Assembly: GCA_024655905.1 (NCBI GenBank)
Contig: JANLFP010000004.1
Span: 83,643 to 147,642, forward strand
From: Tepidanaerobacteraceae bacterium
GTDB lineage: Bacteria > Bacillota > Thermosediminibacteria > Thermosediminibacterales > Tepidanaerobacteraceae
Length of the DNA stretch: 64,000 nucleotides
Direction: 5' to 3'
The position numbers and the translations under genes were made by a program. Below the pieces are notes generated by a model that searched no databases, was not told the DNA's origin, and worked only from the letters and a program-made list of their open reading frames with translations. This document shows positions 49,491-61,499 of the stretch, piece after piece. Each line of letters starts with the position of its first letter. Within the stretch, counting starts at the first letter, position 1.

Positions 49491-49540
49491 TATTGGTGGG
49501 CCATCAGGGACTCGAACCCGGGACACCCTGATTAAGAGTC
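49491..49540. repeat. left attachment-site repeat
   Basis: Fifty bases identical to 61421-61470. They cover the 3' end of tRNA-Lys (CCA, acceptor, T arm, variable loop, anticodon arm) up to the anticodon loop, where identity stops. The tRNA 5' half is missing here, so this copy is not a tRNA gene. The crossover presumably lies in the anticodon loop region. Confidence 0.92.
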
Positions 49541-49778: not shown

Positions 49779-49809
49779 AAAAAAAGGCAGAGACATTTTC
49801 TCCGCCTTT
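49779..49809 (-). terminator. terminator of the small-gene operon
   Basis: On the minus strand AAAGGC-GAGA pairs with TCTC-GCCTTT (one mismatch), followed by a run of T. It overlaps the stop codon of the gene at 49808. Confidence 0.75.
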
Positions 49810-50005
49810 ATTGTGGATTGTGGTTGTATTTCTCCCTCTCAACATCTATCATGCTTCGCATTATGGCATACTCAAAGCCATCGAAATAGCCTCTGTAATA
49901 ATCATCCTTGTAGTATTTCGCTTCATCGTAGGTGGTGCAGTGCTCTTCCAGCCGTTGAAACAGCATCCGCAGTATATCTTCCTTTACGTCGCTTGGATAA
50001 TTCAT
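49808..50005 (-). CDS. small acidic protein, paralog of its upstream neighbour
   Basis: A 65-residue protein that shares its plan with the 59-residue product of 50007-50186: both start M-(N/D)-YPS-x-VK and both have a KY-(Y/N)-KD-(D/E)-(Y/F)-YRGY-x-x-G-(F/Y)-E-x-AI core. SD GGGAGG lies inside the end of that gene, so translation is coupled. No known family; an element-borne tandem duplication. Confidence 0.7.
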   Translation of the reverse strand: MNYPSDVKEDILRMLFQRLEEHCTTYDEAKYYKDDYYRGYFDGFEYAIMRSMIDVEREKYNHNPQ

Positions 50006-50006
50006 T

Positions 50007-50186
50007 TCAAATTGCCTCCCTTAGTTTATTATTGATTTTTGCCATCAAGTGGAATATTGCTTCTTCATAGCCAGTGGAATAGCCTCTATAAAATTCATCT
50101 TTGTTGTATTTTTCCTTCTGAAAACAATTACGGTGGTCTTCAAGCAGTTCAGCTATACTGGTCTTAACTATGCTTGGATAATCCAT
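50007..50186 (-). CDS. small protein, first of a tandem paralogous pair
   Basis: A 59-codon ORF (ATG 50186, SD AGGAGG) opening MDYPSIVKTSIAELLEDHRN, with KYNKDEFYRGYSTGYEEAIF in the middle. It is clearly homologous to the 65-residue product downstream. Both are charged, soluble-looking and rich in Tyr/Asp/Glu. Not recognised; too short for most gene finders. Confidence 0.65.
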   Translation of the reverse strand: MDYPSIVKTSIAELLEDHRNCFQKEKYNKDEFYRGYSTGYEEAIFHLMAKINNKLREAI

Positions 50187-50521: not shown

Positions 50522-50550
50522 TTGATTTTTTGTGTAATCCATGATAATTT
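50522..50550 (+). promoter_or_regulatory. promoter of the excisionase-like gene
   Basis: TTGATT (50522-50527), 17 bp, TAATTT (50545-50550), 25 bp before the start codon. Confidence 0.5.
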
Positions 50551-50575
50551 AGTAATTGTAAGTGAGGTGTGCAGA

Positions 50576-50749
50576 ATGGAAAATTATTATACGCCACAAG
50601 AAGTGGCAGAAAAACTTAAATTAAACATCAGAACGCTGTATAAATGGATTCGAGAAGGCAACATTAAGGCTGTCAAAATAGGTGGAGTATGGCGCATTTC
50701 CGAATCGGAAATAAGCCGTTTATTGGAAGGAAATTCATTCGGTGAGTAG
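50576..50749 (+). CDS. excisionase-like helix-turn-helix protein
   Basis: A 57-residue MerR/excisionase-type DNA-binding protein: YYTPQEVAEKLKLNIRTLYK, then WIREGNIKAVKIGGVWRISE, the usual helix-turn-helix plus wing. SD GTGAGGTG, ATG 50576. Such proteins act as recombination directionality factors or small regulators. Its place near the left end and on the plus strand, apart from the main minus-strand operon, fits either. It is one of two AlpA/Xis-like proteins in the element. Confidence 0.75.
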   Translation: MENYYTPQEVAEKLKLNIRTLYKWIREGNIKAVKIGGVWRISESEISRLLEGNSFGE

Positions 50750-51704: not shown

Positions 51705-51899
51705 TTATGATTGTGTTTCCTTGCTTTTAGGCGTTTTACGCTTTGCTCTTTCCATACGTTTACCTAGTATAACGCCATATGAGAAAACTGCCATTAAACC
51801 AATATGTTCAGAAAATCTGGAAGCTATTTCCTTTATATCATCCGAATACTCATATGGCAAACGTTGTTGCCCAACAACAAATAAATCATGTGCCTTCAT
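51705..51899 (-). CDS. small protein with hydrophobic central segment
   Basis: A 64-residue protein (ATG 51899, SD GGGGG). Residues about 33-48 (HIGLMAVFSYGVILGK) are hydrophobic and followed by a very basic tail (KRMERAKRKTPKSK), which could anchor it at the membrane. Last gene of the minus-strand operon, after the tail-like gene. Phage genes at this position are often holin-like, but one weak segment does not establish that. Confidence 0.5.
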   Translation of the reverse strand: MKAHDLFVVGQQRLPYEYSDDIKEIASRFSEHIGLMAVFSYGVILGKRMERAKRKTPKSKETQS

Positions 51900-51958
51900 T
51901 ATATAATTACCCCCTTTTATTGTAATAAAAAAAAGAGGGCTTATAGCCCCCTCTTTCA

Positions 51959-53116
51959 TCAGTCGTAGACGTAAAACAAGCCGTATTTACCTAATTTGTC
52001 TAATATGCCGTTGATTTTGATTATCACCTGCGACAAAGTGGCGCTAGAAGGCAACAGTTGTGCCGACTGCTGAGAAACGGGAGTATTGCCGAAAAATCCG
52101 ATATTGTCATTAAAACACCAATCTCCATGAGTATAGGTGGTTCCACTACTAGAACCCAAAGTTAAATTACCGCCTGCTGTAGGATAAACCGATAATGTTG
52201 AATCAATGGCGGCTATTGTTCCGACCATATCACCATGATAAAAAAAGCCAAGCGCATTAACGCCCTCGCCGATGTCTATAACCAATCCATGCCATCGGTT
52301 ACTACTATCGTAAGAAAATAATCCATCATTGCTTATTTCTATCCTGTTATACCCATCTTTATCGGTTCTTATCAGACTACCTGTAATGGTCCCTCCATTT
52401 ATAATGCTGCCGTTTATTATAGGGCTTTCGATTTGTATTGTAGCGGTTATTTTCCCTGCCGTGATTTTCTGAACCGCATAAGAACTAATCCGGGCTGCTG
52501 GCGGTATCACGAAAATATTGTGCGCAGCCGATATTGATTTATCCATTTCCGAAGCTCTTTTAAAAATTCGGTTTATAAATTTTATCGGGTCGAAAAATCC
52601 TGATTTCTGCATCTTATCTGCAATCCGTTCAACCTCCGGCCATAATATTTCGGGTGTAATAGCTGATTTGATGCAGACAGCGCCCTCGTTCGATTGTATC
52701 CCTGGCTTAAAATCATCTTCGATATCGAACCGAATTAGTCGAGGTCCAAGGTCTGAATTCTCGGCAATTATTACCGATAAAACAAAATCCTTCAACCATG
52801 GAGAGTTTTTTAAGCTATCATCGACTTTCTGCATGAATGAATCATATTCCTGCCTGCATAGCTGCGTTATCCTGTCAAGGTCTTTTTGGTCTAGAATCGA
52901 TTTTCCTCCAAATTCTCTCAGAAATTTTGCTTTAAATGGCTGAGTGGCCTGAATTACTCCACCGCAAAACATGAGAATTTTATCCGATAACTGGGTTATC
53001 TTGCATGAGCCGTCATTGTACTGGCCGTTGCTTCCGTCAGGCTGTAATTCGGTTATGCGCATATCCGCCCCAAGGTAAACACGATTTCCGGCTATAAAGC
53101 CTATTCCGCAAGTCAT
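51959..53116 (-). CDS. Ntn-hydrolase (proteasome-like) domain fused to phage tail-fibre-like region
   Basis: A 385-residue protein. The N-terminus resembles a 20S proteasome beta/HslV fold: M-T-C-G-I-G, then YLGADMRIT, then SCKITQLSDKILMFCGG. If Met is removed, Thr1 would be the nucleophile, with Asp17 and Arg19 at the classic positions and Lys38 corresponding to proteasome Lys33. From about residue 215 the sequence becomes phage-structural: ESPIINGSIINGGTITGSL, EISNDGLFSYDSSN and a terminal TLSQVIIKINGILDKLGKYG, as in Firmicute tail-fibre proteins. No other structural gene is present. It may be a self-processing or host-directed tail protein, or cargo. ATG 53116, SD AAGGGTG. Confidence 0.7.
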   Translation of the reverse strand: MTCGIGFIAGNRVYLGADMRITELQPDGSNGQYNDGSCKITQLSDKILMFCGGVIQATQPFKAKFLREFGGKSILDQKDLDRITQLCRQEYDSFMQKVDDSLKNSPWLKDFVLSVIIAENSDLGPRLIRFDIEDDFKPGIQSNEGAVCIKSAITPEILWPEVERIADKMQKSGFFDPIKFINRIFKRASEMDKSISAAHNIFVIPPAARISSYAVQKITAGKITATIQIESPIINGSIINGGTITGSLIRTDKDGYNRIEISNDGLFSYDSSNRWHGLVIDIGEGVNALGFFYHGDMVGTIAAIDSTLSVYPTAGGNLTLGSSSGTTYTHGDWCFNDNIGFFGNTPVSQQSAQLLPSSATLSQVIIKINGILDKLGKYGLFYVYD

Positions 53117-53505: not shown

Positions 53506-53844
53506 TTATTCTCGATATCCACGTATGGGGATGCCTCCCCAGCTATTTACGACGCCGATTTTATGCGCCAAATCAATCAGCATGGCCGGATCGCTTGCTG
53601 CCTGTTCTATGATGAAGTCCAGCAGCTTTTCTTTGTCAGTGAATTCTAGCAAACCTTCCTTTATGTTGTTGTATCGCTCAAGGTATTCTCTCAAGCATCT
53701 TGCGTAATTTTTCAGCCCTTCTTCACGTCTGGTCAGAATTCTGTCGCTGCCTGATAGCTCTAATTCTGTTTTTGCGGCTTCTGCCTTCTCGTATAGGCTT
53801 TTTAAAATATCGCATACCTTTCCCGGATTAAAGTGTTGAGTCAT
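53506..53844 (-). CDS. small helical protein with AAS-x-PA motif
   Basis: A 112-residue, mainly helical protein (ATG 53844, SD AAAGGATG). Residues 75-100 contain IIEQAASDPAMLIDLAHKI, which closely matches VFEYAASNPAILLTLSRKI in the product of 54913-55281. The two are therefore likely relatives sharing a C-terminal helical module. Function unknown. Confidence 0.6.
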   Translation of the reverse strand: MTQHFNPGKVCDILKSLYEKAEAAKTELELSGSDRILTRREEGLKNYARCLREYLERYNNIKEGLLEFTDKEKLLDFIIEQAASDPAMLIDLAHKIGVVNSWGGIPIRGYRE

Positions 53845-53857
53845 ACTCATCATCCTT

Positions 53858-54397
53858 TCAATTCAATAGTTTTATCGTTTGGTCGTATTGGGCTTTTGTA
53901 ATTCTGGCAACACGTACGAGCCTTTCGATTGCTTCACGCCGTATGTTTTGGGCCTGGTGTTTGCTGACGTATGTTTTTGCTTCGGCCAGTTTGTCTAATA
54001 CGGTATACCAGTCAAGGCGGAGGAAATACTTCGCTTCGATGATGGCCTTTTGCGTTTCCGACAGGGAGCTTAAGGCAATTTCCATTTTGTCGGATATAAG
54101 CTGCAGCAGGGTCAGCTCTTGGGTTATTTCATCTATCAGTGCTTTATGCTCGGCCTTAAGCTGCTTTTGGTAGGTGATAGCAATAGCGGCGGTCTTGTCC
54201 GTTGCGCTTCCCGTTGGGTGGTTCGGGATATCGCCAGGTGTGCTGTGATGCAGTGCCATTGAGAGTATGGCATCGTCTGTGTCAACTTCTTCCTCTGCTG
54301 CGTGTTCAAGCTCCTTCTTCAGAGTCATAATCATCCCCTGTATATCTTGGTATGATTTAAGCAGTGTCTCCATTTCATGATAGCCAATATATTCCAA
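53858..54397 (-). CDS. RinA/ArpU-like phage transcriptional regulator
   Basis: A 179-residue, largely helical protein starting at TTG 54397 behind AGGGAGGTGA. The C-terminal part, with LSETQKAIIEAKYFLRLDWY then VSKHQAQNIRREAIERLVRV, resembles the sigma-70 region-4-like helix-turn-helix of ArpU/RinA proteins, which switch on late phage genes. The first half is coiled-coil-like. In this element the genes after it are the tail-like ORF and small ORFs, its likely targets. Confidence 0.6.
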   Translation of the reverse strand: MEYIGYHEMETLLKSYQDIQGMIMTLKKELEHAAEEEVDTDDAILSMALHHSTPGDIPNHPTGSATDKTAAIAITYQKQLKAEHKALIDEITQELTLLQLISDKMEIALSSLSETQKAIIEAKYFLRLDWYTVLDKLAEAKTYVSKHQAQNIRREAIERLVRVARITKAQYDQTIKLLN

Positions 54398-54532
54398 TTT
54401 TTTCTCACCTCCCTTGCTATAATGTTTTTGGGAGAGGAAGGAAAACAACAGTTTGCCCTAGCCATAATAAACTTATCGATATATGCTAAATTTTCGGCAC
54501 TTCTTTATTACTAATAATAATCATTATTATTA

Positions 54533-54912: not shown

Positions 54913-55281
54913 TCAATTCCTCCTCTTGAAAAGATTTACTATGCCCTTTTCATTCGTCGAAAAATATCGTTCTGACAGTGGAGTGAGGTTTTCGCCAAAA
55001 ATCTTTCTTGACAAAGTCAGTAGGATTGCCGGATTGCTGGCAGCATACTCAAAAACCGTTTCAATAAAGGCTTGTGGCTCATCCTTCCAGGCAAATACAG
55101 TCTTTAGCTTTTCAGGCCACATCGATTTATAATCTTCCAGGTGCTTTTGATAAAGTATTACCTCAGCCTGTTTATCGTTCGGCTCCTGTTCCTCTTCAAT
55201 ACTCTTCCATTCGTCCCATAGGTTTGCTGCGCTTTCAGCTATTTGTTTAAACGCCACACGTGCTTCATCTAATTTTCCCAC
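54913..55281 (-). CDS. small helical protein related to the 53506 product
   Basis: A 122-residue protein. GTG 55281 is chosen because AAAGGAG lies 7 bases upstream; the in-frame ATG at 55287 is almost on top of that SD. Its C-terminal AASNPAILLTLSRKI segment matches the one in the protein at 53506-53844, indicating a duplicated module. The N-terminal half is helical. Function unknown. Confidence 0.6.
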   Translation of the reverse strand: MGKLDEARVAFKQIAESAANLWDEWKSIEEEQEPNDKQAEVILYQKHLEDYKSMWPEKLKTVFAWKDEPQAFIETVFEYAASNPAILLTLSRKIFGENLTPLSERYFSTNEKGIVNLFKRRN

Positions 55282-55318
55282 GTTCATTCTCCTTTCTGCC
55301 TTTTGACATAGAAATTTT

Positions 55319-55729
55319 TTATTGTTGACATATCCGCTGTCCCTTTTGAAACGCCTCCTTAATTCGCATGAGCGCTGTTTCATACCTTTGCAGGGCCGCC
55401 AGGAATTGTTCTCTAGTCCCGTCAAATGCGGCATCTACGGCATCGCTGACCTGTCGGTATGCCGTAAAAAGCGGTGTCCCCTGCGACGCTATCAATGCTC
55501 CCTGCGGCCAGTCAATCATTATGGCCTTTGTGTCGCCGATAAGCCACTGCTTGGCTTCTTTCTCATCAATGGGACCTTTGAGTAGCTCAATGATTTCCTG
55601 CTTATGCTGTTTTATCAAGGACTTTATTTCATCGGTAAGCCTTGAGGCAGGTCCCACGAAAAGTGTCCCGTCTCGTATCTCAAAGGTGAATCCCTTGCAA
55701 TGCAGGCTGTACAGATCCCTGGATGTCAT
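55319..55729 (-). CDS. protein with TubC-docking-like N-terminus
   Basis: A 136-residue protein. Residues 5-50 (GFTFEIRDGTLFVGPASRL, then DEIKSLIKQHKQEIIELLK) resemble the TubC docking domain, found at the start of many phage and plasmid replication proteins. The rest is unassigned. It directly follows the primase-helicase gene and may dock to it. SD AAAGGGG before ATG 55729. Confidence 0.6.
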   Translation of the reverse strand: MTSRDLYSLHCKGFTFEIRDGTLFVGPASRLTDEIKSLIKQHKQEIIELLKGPIDEKEAKQWLIGDTKAIMIDWPQGALIASQGTPLFTAYRQVSDAVDAAFDGTREQFLAALQRYETALMRIKEAFQKGQRICQQ

Positions 55730-55747: not shown

Positions 55748-57592
55748 CTAAAATGGCACTGCTTCGTTGTCGCTACAAGAGACTAATTCAATATCTGGCG
55801 GCTCCCATGCGTCACCATGCATGTACTTTTTCCAGTTATATTCAATCTGTCTTAATTCCCCATTTTCAAGCTCAAGAAACCTTTTGGTGGCTTCCTGAAA
55901 CATCAGTTTTACTTCTGCATATTTGCCGTTTTCACGGTCTTTCAAAAGCCTTAAGAGTGCATCACAGTCCCGGTCTTCTCTAAATTGCCGCTCGATGGAT
56001 ACTATGATATCGGCCTTGTTGGAAATATTGGCGGAACCCGAAATATCCTCCTTTTCCAGCTTTTCGCCCTGCCTTTTGAGCTTATTCGGATGGCACACAA
56101 GCATTACATGGGTTTTATATGCTTCGGCAAAATCTTTACATTGCTGCGTAAAATTCGACTGATTGGCGTTTTGTGCGTCTGCTGAATCTTCCAGTGCCGA
56201 CATAAGGTTGTCAACAATCATGAGCTTACAACCGTACCGTTTGACAGCAATTTCCATCACTTCAAATAATGCGTTTGTATCTTTCCGAACGTTCAAAACG
56301 CTTTTATCGAAGGTGTAGAATTTTCCCGACATCCATTGCATTAGGGCTTTTACGGCTTCGGGTTTCACTTCTGATTTTAGCCTGTACTTGGTCTGCACAA
56401 ATTCCAAGTATTCCCGCTCATCCCCGATAGCCTGCCGGAATAGCCAGTTTAAAATCCTTTGCGTTCCCATCTCGCCTGAATACAGGAAAACCGGTATGTC
56501 GTGGTCAATAGCATTACATATCACTTGTGATACGATGGTACTTTTTCCCTCGCTATTCCGACCTACAAGTATACCTAATTGCCCCGGCTTCAAGTCCTCG
56601 ATTGCGCTGTCAAGCCCATAAAAGCCTGTCGGTATACCATCTTCGTCCTTTACGCCTTCATATGGGACCTTCGACATATCTATAATACCGGTTGGCGTGC
56701 GCTCGATAGCTTCATTTATGAGCCTCAAAATTTCATCCTTGCCCTGATGTATCAAAATTTCGCCGGCATCCTTATACTGATGTTCGACGACCTTTGTCCT
56801 GTGCTTCCCAAGCCGGATGCATAGTTCCTCAATCATTTTTCGCCCCGGTGCGTCGTTGTCGCCAAAAATTATAAATTCCTGGACCTTTTGCAGCCATTCC
56901 CAACAGTTATCTATCCACGAAAAGGAATTGCATCCAGAAGGGACACTTGTGGCGTTTTTGTAGCCTGCTTCCCATATCGCCATAGCGTCTATCTGGCCTT
57001 CGGTAATCACAACCGGCTTTGTCACGTCAATATGCCACATACCCCAGAGAATCTGCTTTGTATTTGGCTCACAACCGCCTTTTAAGCCGCCTTCCTTGAT
57101 TTCCCTATACGAAACATATTGAAGCTCGTTTTTGTCGTCAAAATACTGGAATACAAAAACATCCTTGCCCTTCCATGTCCCTTGTTTTACCTTCCAATCA
57201 TTCAGGGTTTGAAGGGATATTCCACGGCTCGCCATGTAGTCAATCGCCGCCCGGCTCAGGTCGGTCGTTTTTATATTCGGTTTTTTGTATGTTACAGGCT
57301 TATACGTCATGATATCTTCGCCTATCATTCGTCCCACTTCCTCAAGTGCTTCCCGAAATGTCATATGCTTGAATTCCTGCAAATACCGGTATATGTCCAT
57401 CGTTTCACCGCACCCGAAGCATTTCCACTGTAGCCTTGCTCTGTCCCATTTGAACGAAGGCGTTTTGTCGTCATGGAAAGGGCAGCAGGCTTCGTTTCGG
57501 TCGGGCCTGTATTTTTTCAAGCTCATAGCGGAAGCAATTATGTCCCGTGCTCGATCGCCCAATCTTTGCTTATATTCCTGCGCATTGCCCAC
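55748..57592 (-). CDS. phage primase-helicase (T7 gp4-like)
   Basis: A 614-residue bifunctional replication protein. The zinc-binding primase domain has CPFHDDKTPSFKW and CFGCGE (residues about 37-62). A Toprim domain follows with ITEGQIDAMAIWEAG and FGDNDAPGRK. The RecA-like hexameric helicase has Walker A VGRNSEGKST, Walker B LMIVDNLMS and VCHPNKLKRQG. It would prime and unwind DNA in element replication. Start GTG 57592, overlapping the preceding gene by 23 bp. Its presence shows the element can take part in its own replication. Confidence 0.9.
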   Translation of the reverse strand: MGNAQEYKQRLGDRARDIIASAMSLKKYRPDRNEACCPFHDDKTPSFKWDRARLQWKCFGCGETMDIYRYLQEFKHMTFREALEEVGRMIGEDIMTYKPVTYKKPNIKTTDLSRAAIDYMASRGISLQTLNDWKVKQGTWKGKDVFVFQYFDDKNELQYVSYREIKEGGLKGGCEPNTKQILWGMWHIDVTKPVVITEGQIDAMAIWEAGYKNATSVPSGCNSFSWIDNCWEWLQKVQEFIIFGDNDAPGRKMIEELCIRLGKHRTKVVEHQYKDAGEILIHQGKDEILRLINEAIERTPTGIIDMSKVPYEGVKDEDGIPTGFYGLDSAIEDLKPGQLGILVGRNSEGKSTIVSQVICNAIDHDIPVFLYSGEMGTQRILNWLFRQAIGDEREYLEFVQTKYRLKSEVKPEAVKALMQWMSGKFYTFDKSVLNVRKDTNALFEVMEIAVKRYGCKLMIVDNLMSALEDSADAQNANQSNFTQQCKDFAEAYKTHVMLVCHPNKLKRQGEKLEKEDISGSANISNKADIIVSIERQFREDRDCDALLRLLKDRENGKYAEVKLMFQEATKRFLELENGELRQIEYNWKKYMHGDAWEPPDIELVSCSDNEAVPF

Positions 57593-58328
57593 CGTTTACC
57601 ATCTCCTTCAGCCGGAGGTATTCTGCGTTGGGTTTTGGTTCAGTTTTATCCTTGTAGTTTGCGTCAAGGTAGTCCACGTATCCGCTGTTGAAAAATGTGC
57701 TGCCATGCATCACGTATTGTATATCTTTGCCCGCTGTTTCTTGCTTGTAGCGGTTAATAGCCCTTGTAAGCTCATCTAAGCCTATCCTGTATAGCTTTTC
57801 TTTCTGTGTTTTACTTACTTGCCCTTTACCACGCTTTTTAGGGTATAAAGCCCATACCTTTTCAAAAAAATCATTTACACGCTCATTCAGTGAATGAGCA
57901 TTATATTCTTTTCTATTCTTTTCTATTCTATTAGGAGTGAGTGTTCCATGAGTATTCAGTGAGTTATCAGTGAGTTCTTTTGAAATGCTCTCATCCGTTG
58001 GGGGAGGCAGTTTTGAAGGCGATGGACGATTGATGGTTTGATACTTTAGGAAATTCGGTAAGTAGTAAAAATCTTGTTCATTAACTTTATAAAGAATTAC
58101 CAGCCGTAGCTTTGCCAGATTTGCAAGCATGTTTTCAATGTCCTTGCTTTTCAGGTCTTCATCATATGGAAAAATGGTCGACTTTATCAGCTTAGGATTA
58201 GCCCTGCCTCTCCCTTCGTCGTCGGCACTAGATATTAATCCCATGAAAAGGAGCCGTTCGTCACGTTTACACTCTCCAAGTTTTTCATCATTCCAAAAAT
58301 CCGGGTCAATCATGCGTTTTCGCGCCAT
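57570..58328 (-). CDS. phage DnaD-like replication protein
   Basis: A 252-residue protein opening MARKRMIDPDFWNDEKLGEC, the usual start of phage replisome-organiser/DnaD-type proteins. These have an N-terminal winged helix (to about residue 110), a variable linker and a C-terminal conserved helical domain (here VWALYPKKRGKGQVSKTQKE onward). Such proteins bind the origin and load the helicase, consistent with the primase-helicase gene that follows. Confidence 0.8.
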   Translation of the reverse strand: MARKRMIDPDFWNDEKLGECKRDERLLFMGLISSADDEGRGRANPKLIKSTIFPYDEDLKSKDIENMLANLAKLRLVILYKVNEQDFYYLPNFLKYQTINRPSPSKLPPPTDESISKELTDNSLNTHGTLTPNRIEKNRKEYNAHSLNERVNDFFEKVWALYPKKRGKGQVSKTQKEKLYRIGLDELTRAINRYKQETAGKDIQYVMHGSTFFNSGYVDYLDANYKDKTEPKPNAEYLRLKEMVNGGQCAGI

Positions 58329-58330
58329 CG

Positions 58331-58543
58331 TCACCACCGCCCTAAAAGCCTTAGTTCATCTCGCCGGCAATGGAAGTCATCATGTTTCTGCTCGAGTTCT
58401 GCAGCAATGCCTTCCGGAACATCAAATTTGTTTACGAAAAATTTCAGCTTTCGCCAATCCGCCTTTTTCGGAAACGCTGGATGTCTTGCCCACCATTTGG
58501 CATCGGGGGAGCTATATCGTCGAACATATGTTCTGAAGTCCAT
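58331..58543 (-). CDS. small phage-type protein, unknown
   Basis: A 70-residue basic, aromatic-rich protein (MDFRTYVRRYSSPDAKWWAR...) with a clear SD (GGCGGTGAGG) before ATG 58543. It is co-transcribed between the AlpA-like and DnaD-like genes. No recognised family. Confidence 0.6.
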   Translation of the reverse strand: MDFRTYVRRYSSPDAKWWARHPAFPKKADWRKLKFFVNKFDVPEGIAAELEQKHDDFHCRRDELRLLGRW

Positions 58544-58554
58544 AGCCTCACCGC

Positions 58555-58785
58555 CTATCGTACAACCCGGAGTTTACCATATTCCTGCTTATCTGGCTGG
58601 CGGACGTTTTCAAGAGCTTTCTGCTTCAGAAAATCCTCAAGCTGCTCAATATCAAAAACGTATCGGCCATGCGGTCCGCCTATCCGAATGCAAGGGACCT
58701 CTCCCGCCCTTGCCAGTTGGTACAGGGCATTCTTTGTTAACCCAACCGCTGTCGCCGCTTCTTTCAAGAGTGCTTTTTGTCCCAT
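58555..58785 (-). CDS. AlpA-like helix-turn-helix regulator
   Basis: A 76-residue DNA-binding protein starting MGQKALLKEAATAVGLTKNA, with RYVFDIEQLEDFLKQKAL as wing and C-terminal helix, like AlpA/excisionase proteins. ATG 58785 has a near-perfect SD (AAGGAGGTGG). Directly downstream of the repressor gene, it probably controls early genes or excision. Confidence 0.8.
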   Translation of the reverse strand: MGQKALLKEAATAVGLTKNALYQLARAGEVPCIRIGGPHGRYVFDIEQLEDFLKQKALENVRQPDKQEYGKLRVVR

Positions 58786-58786
58786 A

Positions 58787-58978
58787 TTATTCCACCTCCT
58801 TGAAAAGCTCATCTCCTGGAATATTGAAAAACTTGGAAAGCCTTTCTATATATGCAGGAAAAGGCTTTGACATACCGTTTTCCATCCGTGAAATTTCGGC
58901 TGGCCCTATGCCTACCTTCTCCCCTAATTGCTTTTGGGTAAGCCCCCGTTTCCGTCTTTCTAATTCCAGTGTCAACAT
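58787..58978 (-). CDS. XRE-family repressor
   Basis: A 63-residue helix-turn-helix protein (LERRKRGLTQKQLGEKVGIG, then ISRMENGMSKPFPAYIERLS), essentially only an XRE domain. ATG 58978 is eight bases after AAAAGGAG. It is divergent from the gene at 59249, with three TTGCGACA boxes in between, the layout of a lysogeny switch. It lacks a peptidase domain, so induction would need another factor. Confidence 0.82.
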   Translation of the reverse strand: MLTLELERRKRGLTQKQLGEKVGIGPAEISRMENGMSKPFPAYIERLSKFFNIPGDELFKEVE

Positions 58979-59014
58979 CTTCATCACTCCTTTTAATAAT
59001 TTTTACAAAAACAT

Positions 59015-60021: not shown

Positions 60022-61293
60022 ATGGCATCAATCAAAAAAAGAGGCCAAAATAGCTGGCTTGTTACTGTATCAAATGGGTATGATTCTGCTGGGAGAAAAA
60101 TCATCAAAACAAAGACTTTTAAAAAACCGCCTGAAATGACGGACAAGCAATGGGAGAAGGAGTTGCCAAAGCTGGCGCTCGAATTTGAAAGGCAGGTGGA
60201 AAAAGGGACCGTTTTAGACGGGAATGTCACGTTGAAGGAATTTGTTGATAGGTGGATGAAAGAATATGCCGAAAAGCAGCTTGAACCAAAGACGCTGGAA
60301 TCTTATAAGTATGAGCTTGATTCCAAAATCATCCCTGCCCTGGGTCATGTTCGTTTAGATAAGCTAACGCCGGTCCATATTTTGAGCTTTCTAAACAACT
60401 TGCTTGAGGATGGTGTGCGGCAAGACGGGAAACAAATACCTTATTCAAACCGTGTTATCAAATACCAGCACCAGATTCTATCCAGCATCCTTCAGACTGC
60501 CGTATACTGGCAGACCCTTGAAAGTAATCCATGCTCACGGGTGAAGTGCCCTAAGCGTGATGTCGTGGATAACAAACAAAAGTTCTTTGATGAGAACCAA
60601 GCGGCAATCTTCCTTGAAGCCGTTAAGGACGAACCTTTGAAATGGCAGGTGATGGTGAACCTTGCCTTGCTTGCAGGCTTGCGCAAAGGCGAATTACTAG
60701 CCCTTACATGGAATGATATAAACCTGGAAGAAGGCTGGCTTACGGTTAACAAGGCCATATCTGCCACAAAGGAATTAGGTACTTTCGTGAAGTCTCCTAA
60801 AACCGAAAGCTCAGTCAGGACTCTTGCAATGCCTAAAACTCTGGTTGCTCTTTTGAAGAAATATAAGGCATGGCAGAACGAACAAAAATTGAAATGCGGC
60901 AATCTTTGGGACAAAAATTGGGAGACGACCCCTTGGCTTTTCACAACGTGGAATGGCAAGGTGATGAATTACTATTCACCTCATGGGTGGTTTCGCAAAT
61001 TCATCAGGCGGTATAATGAGAAGGTTAGAAATGATGAGAGTATACCTGAAAATGAAAAAAGCAGCTACCTGCTGCCTGAAATATCTTTCCACGGTCTGCG
61101 GCATACTTCTGCAACCCTTTTGATAGGAGAAAAGGTTGATATAAGAACCGTATCCGCTAGACTGGGTCATAATCAAGTGTCAACTACTTTAAACATATAC
61201 GCACACAGCTTAAAAGCTGCGGACAGAAAGGCAGCAGATAGCCTTGAAAATCTATTGACCAAAAAGAATAAACCTAATATCAAACAGGCTTAA
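60022..61293 (+). CDS. int: tyrosine integrase
   Basis: A 423-residue tyrosine recombinase. The N-terminal arm-binding region opens KKRGQNSWLVTVSNGYDSAG, a SAM-like core-binding domain follows (about 70-165), and the catalytic domain has LAGLRKGELLAL (Arg), HGLRHTSATLL (His/Arg), ARLGHNQVSTTL (His) and nucleophile Tyr in IYAHS. All catalytic residues are present, so it should be active. It is transcribed towards the right att site and the tRNA-Lys. SD AGGAGG. Confidence 0.95.
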   Translation: MASIKKRGQNSWLVTVSNGYDSAGRKIIKTKTFKKPPEMTDKQWEKELPKLALEFERQVEKGTVLDGNVTLKEFVDRWMKEYAEKQLEPKTLESYKYELDSKIIPALGHVRLDKLTPVHILSFLNNLLEDGVRQDGKQIPYSNRVIKYQHQILSSILQTAVYWQTLESNPCSRVKCPKRDVVDNKQKFFDENQAAIFLEAVKDEPLKWQVMVNLALLAGLRKGELLALTWNDINLEEGWLTVNKAISATKELGTFVKSPKTESSVRTLAMPKTLVALLKKYKAWQNEQKLKCGNLWDKNWETTPWLFTTWNGKVMNYYSPHGWFRKFIRRYNEKVRNDESIPENEKSSYLLPEISFHGLRHTSATLLIGEKVDIRTVSARLGHNQVSTTLNIYAHSLKAADRKAADSLENLLTKKNKPNIKQA

Positions 61294-61420: not shown

Positions 61421-61470
61421 TATTGGTGGGCCATCAGGGACTCGAACCCGGGACACCCTGATTAAGAGTC
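61421..61470. repeat. right attachment-site repeat
   Basis: Second copy of the 50-bp repeat at 49491-49540, here as the 3' part of the intact tRNA-Lys. Integration restored the tRNA sequence, so the gene should stay functional. Confidence 0.92.
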
Positions 61471-61499
61471 AGGTGCTCTACCAACTGAGCTAATGGCCC
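61424..61499 (-). tRNA. tRNA-Lys (CTT)
   Basis: A 76-nt tRNA with acceptor GGGCCAT/ATGGCCC, discriminator A, encoded CCA and anticodon loop CTCTTAA (anticodon CTT). Last of four tRNAs in a minus-strand cluster and the integration target of the mobile element. Confidence 0.95.

Follow-up and report, generated by a model that had tools for sequence, protein, structure and literature searches.

A probable proteasome-like hydrolase joined to a phage-tail-type domain in a small integrated element of a Tepidanaerobacteraceae bacterium

Why should a small integrated element carry a gene that appears to join a proteasome-like hydrolase to a piece of a phage tail, and what might the product of such a gene do? 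The question is raised by a gene at positions 51959..53116 of the window, by which we mean the whole 64,000-nucleotide stretch of Tepidanaerobacteraceae DNA analysed here. A preliminary description, made from the sequence alone, had placed an Ntn-hydrolase domain fused to a tail-fibre-like region at these coordinates, and they are right. On the minus strand the gene runs from an ATG at 53116 to a stop at 51959, and its frame is intact and open throughout (385 aa); the plus-strand reading of the same interval has 20 stops. The ATG is better spaced from an AGGGTGA motif than is a GTG one codon upstream, and the protein probably starts at the ATG. With that start, removal of the initiator methionine would expose a threonine as residue 1. 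Since the threonine directly follows the methionine there is no propeptide, and self-processing by removal of one is rejected, where the preliminary description had allowed that the protein could process itself; a survey of proteasome homologues confines propeptides to the proteasome beta subunits and HslV (PMC8665760). The stop codon shares one base with the ATG of an 84-aa open reading frame that matches no family (51705..51959, minus) and is possibly translationally coupled to the fusion gene.

Counted from Thr2 (codon 53111..53113, the nucleophile position), the window protein has Thr1, Asp17 (residue 18, codon 53063..53065), Arg19 and Thr21, in the proteasome beta register that the preliminary description had assigned to them (beta-subunit numbering as in PMC8665760). 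Lys39 (53000..53002) is mature residue 38, or Lys33 plus five, and Gly53 (52958..52960), at the oxyanion-hole position, is mature residue 52, or Gly47 plus five. Because both are displaced by five, the Lys-to-Gly spacing of 14 is that of 20S beta subunits. The match to Lys33 across a five-residue insertion, also part of the first reading, gains from a fused relative, L083, in which Asp and Lys are again 21 residues apart, so that the insertion is common to both proteins. Asp17, Lys33 and Gly47 are invariant in 9/9 aligned members, made up of eight Paenibacillaceae relatives and the window protein, and Arg19 is kept in seven of the eight relatives (8/9 with the window protein). A check for homologues lacking the Thr, Asp or Lys positions found these kept in all eight, with Ser replacing Thr at residue 1 in each. 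Retention of the catalytic positions by proteins that are only about 20% identical to the window protein argues that it may well be an active enzyme. One alignment (A3) paired Asp17 of the family with Asp27 in the window protein; it was put aside because two others (A2 and A4) and L-INS-i give Asp18, as do the relatives with the same spacing, L083 and L094.

The relatives lie at some distance from the window protein in sequence, and direct searches did not lead to them. The N-terminal half, which extends from residue 1 to about residue 210 (52487..53116, minus; supported by hhalign and HMMER), had no match in Pfam or NCBIfam and none among PDB sequences. No relative of it was found by tblastn of phages and plasmids or by pattern scans of IMG/VR and GTDB contigs, and none was kept from genomes of the host's family, its class and a sample of its phylum. 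Two weak matches from the phylum were rejected, one because it falls in an apparent EF-Ts gene (L005) and the other because it lies in a 4723-aa frame (L004). When the Pfam Proteasome profile PF00227 was run against 151 Paenibacillaceae, the matches listed included strong HslV-type proteins only; a rerun on selected genomes of that family gave a weak second tier, from which an intermediate family was built and later extended. Members were found in few of the Paenibacillaceae genomes searched. Further weak matches (L088, L096-L099 and L101) were left aside or looked like chance.

This intermediate family bridges the gap between the window protein and the proteasomes because it matches both. In HMMER, a family profile built without the window protein gives that protein 23.7 bits, while the highest score among 5000 shuffles is 8.9. 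Among the open reading frames of the window the fusion protein is the only one of note, with 21.6 bits and the next at 3.1, and its 21.6 bits also exceed the 9.6 bits of HslV proteins. Alignment of the window protein to the Paenibacillus family with hhalign covers 167 columns with a probability of 83 and a pairwise E-value of 9e-6. On the proteasome side one relative (L079) passes PF00227 with 24.5 bits against a cut-off of 22.4, and three others (L080, L085 and L086) fall under it at 17.5-20.1 bits. A PDB search with the family profile, the window protein excluded, returned almost solely proteasome and HslV chains (best E 0.0028); with the window protein included the best E was 4.6e-5, a value that depends on a forced alignment and is supportive only. 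Residues 105-210 of the domain are very divergent, and towards its end the window protein has ISA in place of a VGG motif.

Structure prediction gave models of low confidence only. The one from AlphaFold2 with a four-sequence alignment (pLDDT 43.6, pTM 0.42) has an order of elements, strand-strand-helix-helix-strand-strand-helix-helix, that fits the topology of proteasomes, whose fold is a four-layer sandwich of strands S1-S11 with helices H1-H4; proteasome and Anbu subunits were frequent among its PDB matches, with PP2C phosphatases intermixed and none significant. The whole protein, predicted from its single sequence, reached a pLDDT of 34.8. At the level of sequence the N-terminal half is supported as a homologue of proteasome-like Ntn hydrolases, and it is homology through the intermediate family that carries the case.

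The other end of the protein has a direct match. Residues 222-339 (52100..52453, minus) match phrog_32308 with an E-value of 4e-9, and the C-terminus scores 45.2 bits against the tail-like partners found in Paenibacillus, where shuffles reach 9.6; the tail-like style first noticed in the last 170 or so residues is borne out by both comparisons. Those residues also hold a GFFG.TPV-type segment of a kind that we take to be typical of tail fibres. The phrog_32308 family covers in addition the C-terminal part of two proteins (L006 and L007) that begin with Prophage_tail PF06605, which relates the C-terminus of the window protein to the end of tail-tip proteins. These profile matches make the C-terminal half a homologue of the end of prophage-endopeptidase tail proteins. 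That the gene encodes a proteasome-like domain followed by a tail-type domain is, in our estimation, very probable.

Such an arrangement is not new in kind. Fuchs, Alva & Lupas 2021 described 22 families of proteasome homologues, among them Firmicute Cluster 4 (FC4), which has phage-tail-like C-terminal domains, occurs in Firmicutes only and comprises 62 sequences at nr90, with WP_076223917.1 as an example; that paper reports no function for FC4 and no genomic context that would suggest one for the families (PMC8665760). The initial proposal that a hydrolase had been joined to a structural part stands as regards the Ntn homology and the tail-type fusion; as a kind, the architecture is already that of FC4. 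In all likelihood the window protein is a new member of the FC4-like group, an assignment that rests on architecture and host range: it shares a tail-protein-like C-terminal domain with its relatives, and its host and the Paenibacillus genomes that carry them fall in one phylum, in keeping with the Firmicutes-only distribution given for FC4 in that paper. It has Thr1 where the relatives found here have Ser1. What is new, set against the part of the FC4 paper available, is the setting of these genes in small integrated elements, the existence of split and fused forms, and an element with head genes but no recognised tail genes.

Other proteasome-type proteins resemble the window protein less closely. 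With HslV, Anbu and the 20S beta subunits it shares the nucleophile, Asp17, Lys33 and Gly47 positions and the profile similarity that runs through the intermediate family; unlike them it has no propeptide, carries a tail-type C-terminus and is too dissimilar for a direct match. PPH and AAH are likewise proteasome-like enzymes borne by phages and prophages, but they belong to group I and are compact (PPH has about 140 residues), whereas FC4, a member of group II, bears the tail-type extension (PMC8665760). A text search of the literature found no paper joining an Ntn hydrolase and a tail fibre.

The fusion gene lies in an element of 11.9 kb between exact 50-bp att repeats (49491..49540 on the left and 61421..61470 on the right), the right copy being in the 3' end of a tRNA-Lys gene (61424-61499, minus). 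Its G+C content is 41%, as against 32-36% in the surroundings. A tyrosine integrase is encoded near the right end (60022..61293, plus; phrog_1, E 5e-76) and an excisionase-like HTH protein near the left (50522..50746, plus; phrog_66, E 5e-11). Between them, on the minus strand, are genes for an XRE-type repressor-like regulator (58790..58987; phrog_8, E 2e-13), an excisionase/AlpA-like HTH protein (58558..58812; phrog_66, E 3e-6), a replication initiation protein (57570..58337; phrog_16167, E 6e-31), a primase-helicase (55748..57592; phrog_239, E 2e-94) and, upstream of the fusion gene, an ArpU-like late-gene regulator (53858..54448; phrog_36). Several small open reading frames have no match of any kind. 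As far as PHROGs scans of its main open reading frames show, the element lacks genes for heads, for packaging and for tails, the C-terminus of the fusion being the sole exception, and to that extent the early remark that it lacks other structural genes holds. PHROGs recognised no packaging-hijack gene (terS, ppi, rpp, cpm or the like) and no AAA+ partner was recognised in the element; no large terminase gene of the phrog_2 type was found in the host genome.

With its length of about 12 kb, its integrase, repressor, primase and replication initiator, its att repeats and its lack of virion genes, the element resembles the PICIs. It differs from them in that no packaging or interference gene was identified in it and no helper is known; since no packaging-hijack gene was recognised, we call it satellite-like rather than a PICI. 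Some of its other genes deserve brief mention. Two element proteins (53506-53853 and 54913-55434) have C-termini that look paralogous (AASDPAMLIDLAHKIG and AASNPAILLTLSRKIF). A small protein encoded beside the primase-helicase gene (55319-55729) has a TubC_N-like docking domain (27.5 bits, above the Pfam cut-off). At the left end, two tandem paralogous open reading frames of about 60 aa (49808-50186) reflect a DNA repeat that is 77% identical.

The preliminary description had proposed a search for the same fusion in other prophages, and the fusion does recur. Two more fused members were found, one of 473 aa (L083) and one of 386 aa (L102/L094), the latter matching the same phrog_32308 with its C-terminus (64.3 bits, E 1e-17). 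Elsewhere the cassette consists of two genes: the end of the hydrolase gene overlaps the start of the tail-like gene at an ATGA in L078, L079 and L082, the overlap is larger in L080 and L085, and in L081 and L103 the two genes lie side by side. In L082 a frameshift splits the hydrolase gene (L082:9193-9806), while the tail-like gene is intact. L079-L083 and L102 also encode an integrase close to the cassette. The gene order in L102 is primase-helicase, ArpU-like gene and fusion gene, the last two overlapping, so that an ArpU-like gene stands directly upstream of the cassette there; in the window, too, primase-helicase and ArpU-like genes lie upstream. L103 looks alike except that hydrolase and tail-like part are encoded separately, its ArpU-like and primase genes being assigned by similarity to L102 only.

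The cassette thus recurs in small integrated elements, most of them showing no virion genes and one of 16 kb with head genes. This last (L083:2130-18464) measures 16.2 kb between 139-bp direct repeats and has genes for a major capsid protein, a scaffold, a terminase and a portal together with the Ntn-tail fusion, apart from which no tail gene was recognisable; it resembles the capsid-forming PICIs and is possibly a capsid-forming satellite. A recombinase is present in the smaller Paenibacillus elements, several of which also carry a large gene that neither Pfam nor PHROGs identified and that may serve replication. Their ends were looked for and not found, and the label of satellite is accordingly provisional for them.

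We favour a reading in which an FC4-like hydrolase is brought to the tail of a helper phage by its tail-like part, and give this mechanism as a whole a probability of roughly 0.4. The putative Ntn hydrolase, with its Thr1, Asp17, Lys33 and Gly47, would be tethered to a C-terminal piece related to the tail tip, of the kind found in prophage-endopeptidase tail proteins, and the fusion gene would be cargo of the 11.9-kb tRNA-Lys element. Since this element has replication and regulation genes of its own and no recognisable virion genes, it probably spreads in helper-phage particles, and from the ArpU-type regulator upstream we infer that the cargo is expressed late. The tail-like part would co-assemble with, or bind, the tail-tip or fibre proteins of the helper and so bring the hydrolase there, and the enzyme would cleave or modify a tail-tip protein as its presumed substrate, either steering or limiting assembly of the helper's tail or fitting out satellite particles. 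That the hydrolase is coupled to a tail-tip piece, and this in elements expected to depend on a helper for their tails, speaks for the tail as the place of action. On the other side weigh the low-confidence AlphaFold2 model with its mixed PDB matches, the divergence of residues 105-210 and of the VGG motif, the lack of a recognised packaging gene in the element and of a phrog_2-type large terminase gene in the host genome, and the small share of searched genomes in which Paenibacillaceae members turned up.

There are precedents for both tail interference and a satellite-borne tail fibre. The Tai tail-assembly-inhibition systems, carried by satellites and prophages, target the central tail fibre (PMC11364771), and MiniFlayer, a satellite with a tail-fibre protein of its own, binds the neck of its helper with its fibres (PMC10690885). 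Tai is alike in that element-borne genes act on the phage tail tip, as we infer for the window protein; it differs in that a text search of the Tai paper found no mention of a protease (PMC11364771). A wider proposal, which we regard as speculative and rather doubtful, is that there exists in the Bacillota a class of satellites with a tail-targeted protease, a proteasome-type Ntn hydrolase which, guided by a copied tail-tip domain to which it is fused or with which it is paired, edits the helper's tail, with the result that the satellite's particles acquire tails or those of rivals cease to function. Because the cassette recurs in small elements, including one in which head genes but no tail genes were recognised, action on helper tails becomes a role that can be tested. 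If it were true, proteolysis would join the ways in which satellites manipulate their helpers, and an orphan proteasome homologue would gain a biological role.

The protein might instead have a structural role, as a tail-tip or receptor-binding piece that the satellite contributes to borrowed helper tails, its Ntn domain serving as an oligomerising base in which catalysis is dispensable; it would then alter the range of cells bound. The homology of the C-terminus to tail-tip proteins fits this, as does the presence of a fused member in the element with head genes and no recognisable tail, and MiniFlayer again supplies the precedent (PMC10690885). We nevertheless hold it to be doubtful, because a nucleophile (Thr or Ser), Asp17, Lys33 and Gly47 kept in 9/9 members at about 20% identity argue for catalysis, and because many elements encode the hydrolase in a gene of its own. 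Defence or host takeover makes a different use of the same two parts: a tail-like decoy would recognise the tail proteins of incoming or helper phages, the Ntn domain would destroy them, and the host population would be protected. Tai lends this some plausibility, since these systems, carried by PICIs, prophages and P4-like satellites, have the central tail fibre as their point of action (PMC11364771), but the cassette stands behind a late-type regulator of the ArpU kind both in the window element and in L102, and it occupies no evident accessory hotspot, which makes a defensive function unlikely.

Finally, the gene could be a remnant with no present function, left when a prophage lost its virion genes and a tail gene was fused by chance to a neighbouring phage Ntn gene. 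One prophage region of the Paenibacillaceae (L089) does have an FC1-like Ntn gene beside tail-like genes, so that fusion by deletion could arise, and the frameshift in the cassette hydrolase gene of L082 would suit decay. Against this, the window gene is intact and open, and the pairing recurs in independent elements, as fused genes and as overlapping pairs, with the catalytic positions kept; we think a remnant very unlikely, and prefer the reading in which a tail-guided hydrolase would act on the tail of a helper.

Other Ntn-like genes were encountered in the Paenibacillaceae in the course of these searches. The FC1-like proteasome homologue of the prophage region (L089:1501-2163) matches PF00227 with 25.2 bits, above the cut-off, and lies just downstream of a tail-spike-like gene. 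Further Ntn-like open reading frames lie beside phage-type amidase or lysis-like genes (L063:1072-1887 and L065:427-1701).
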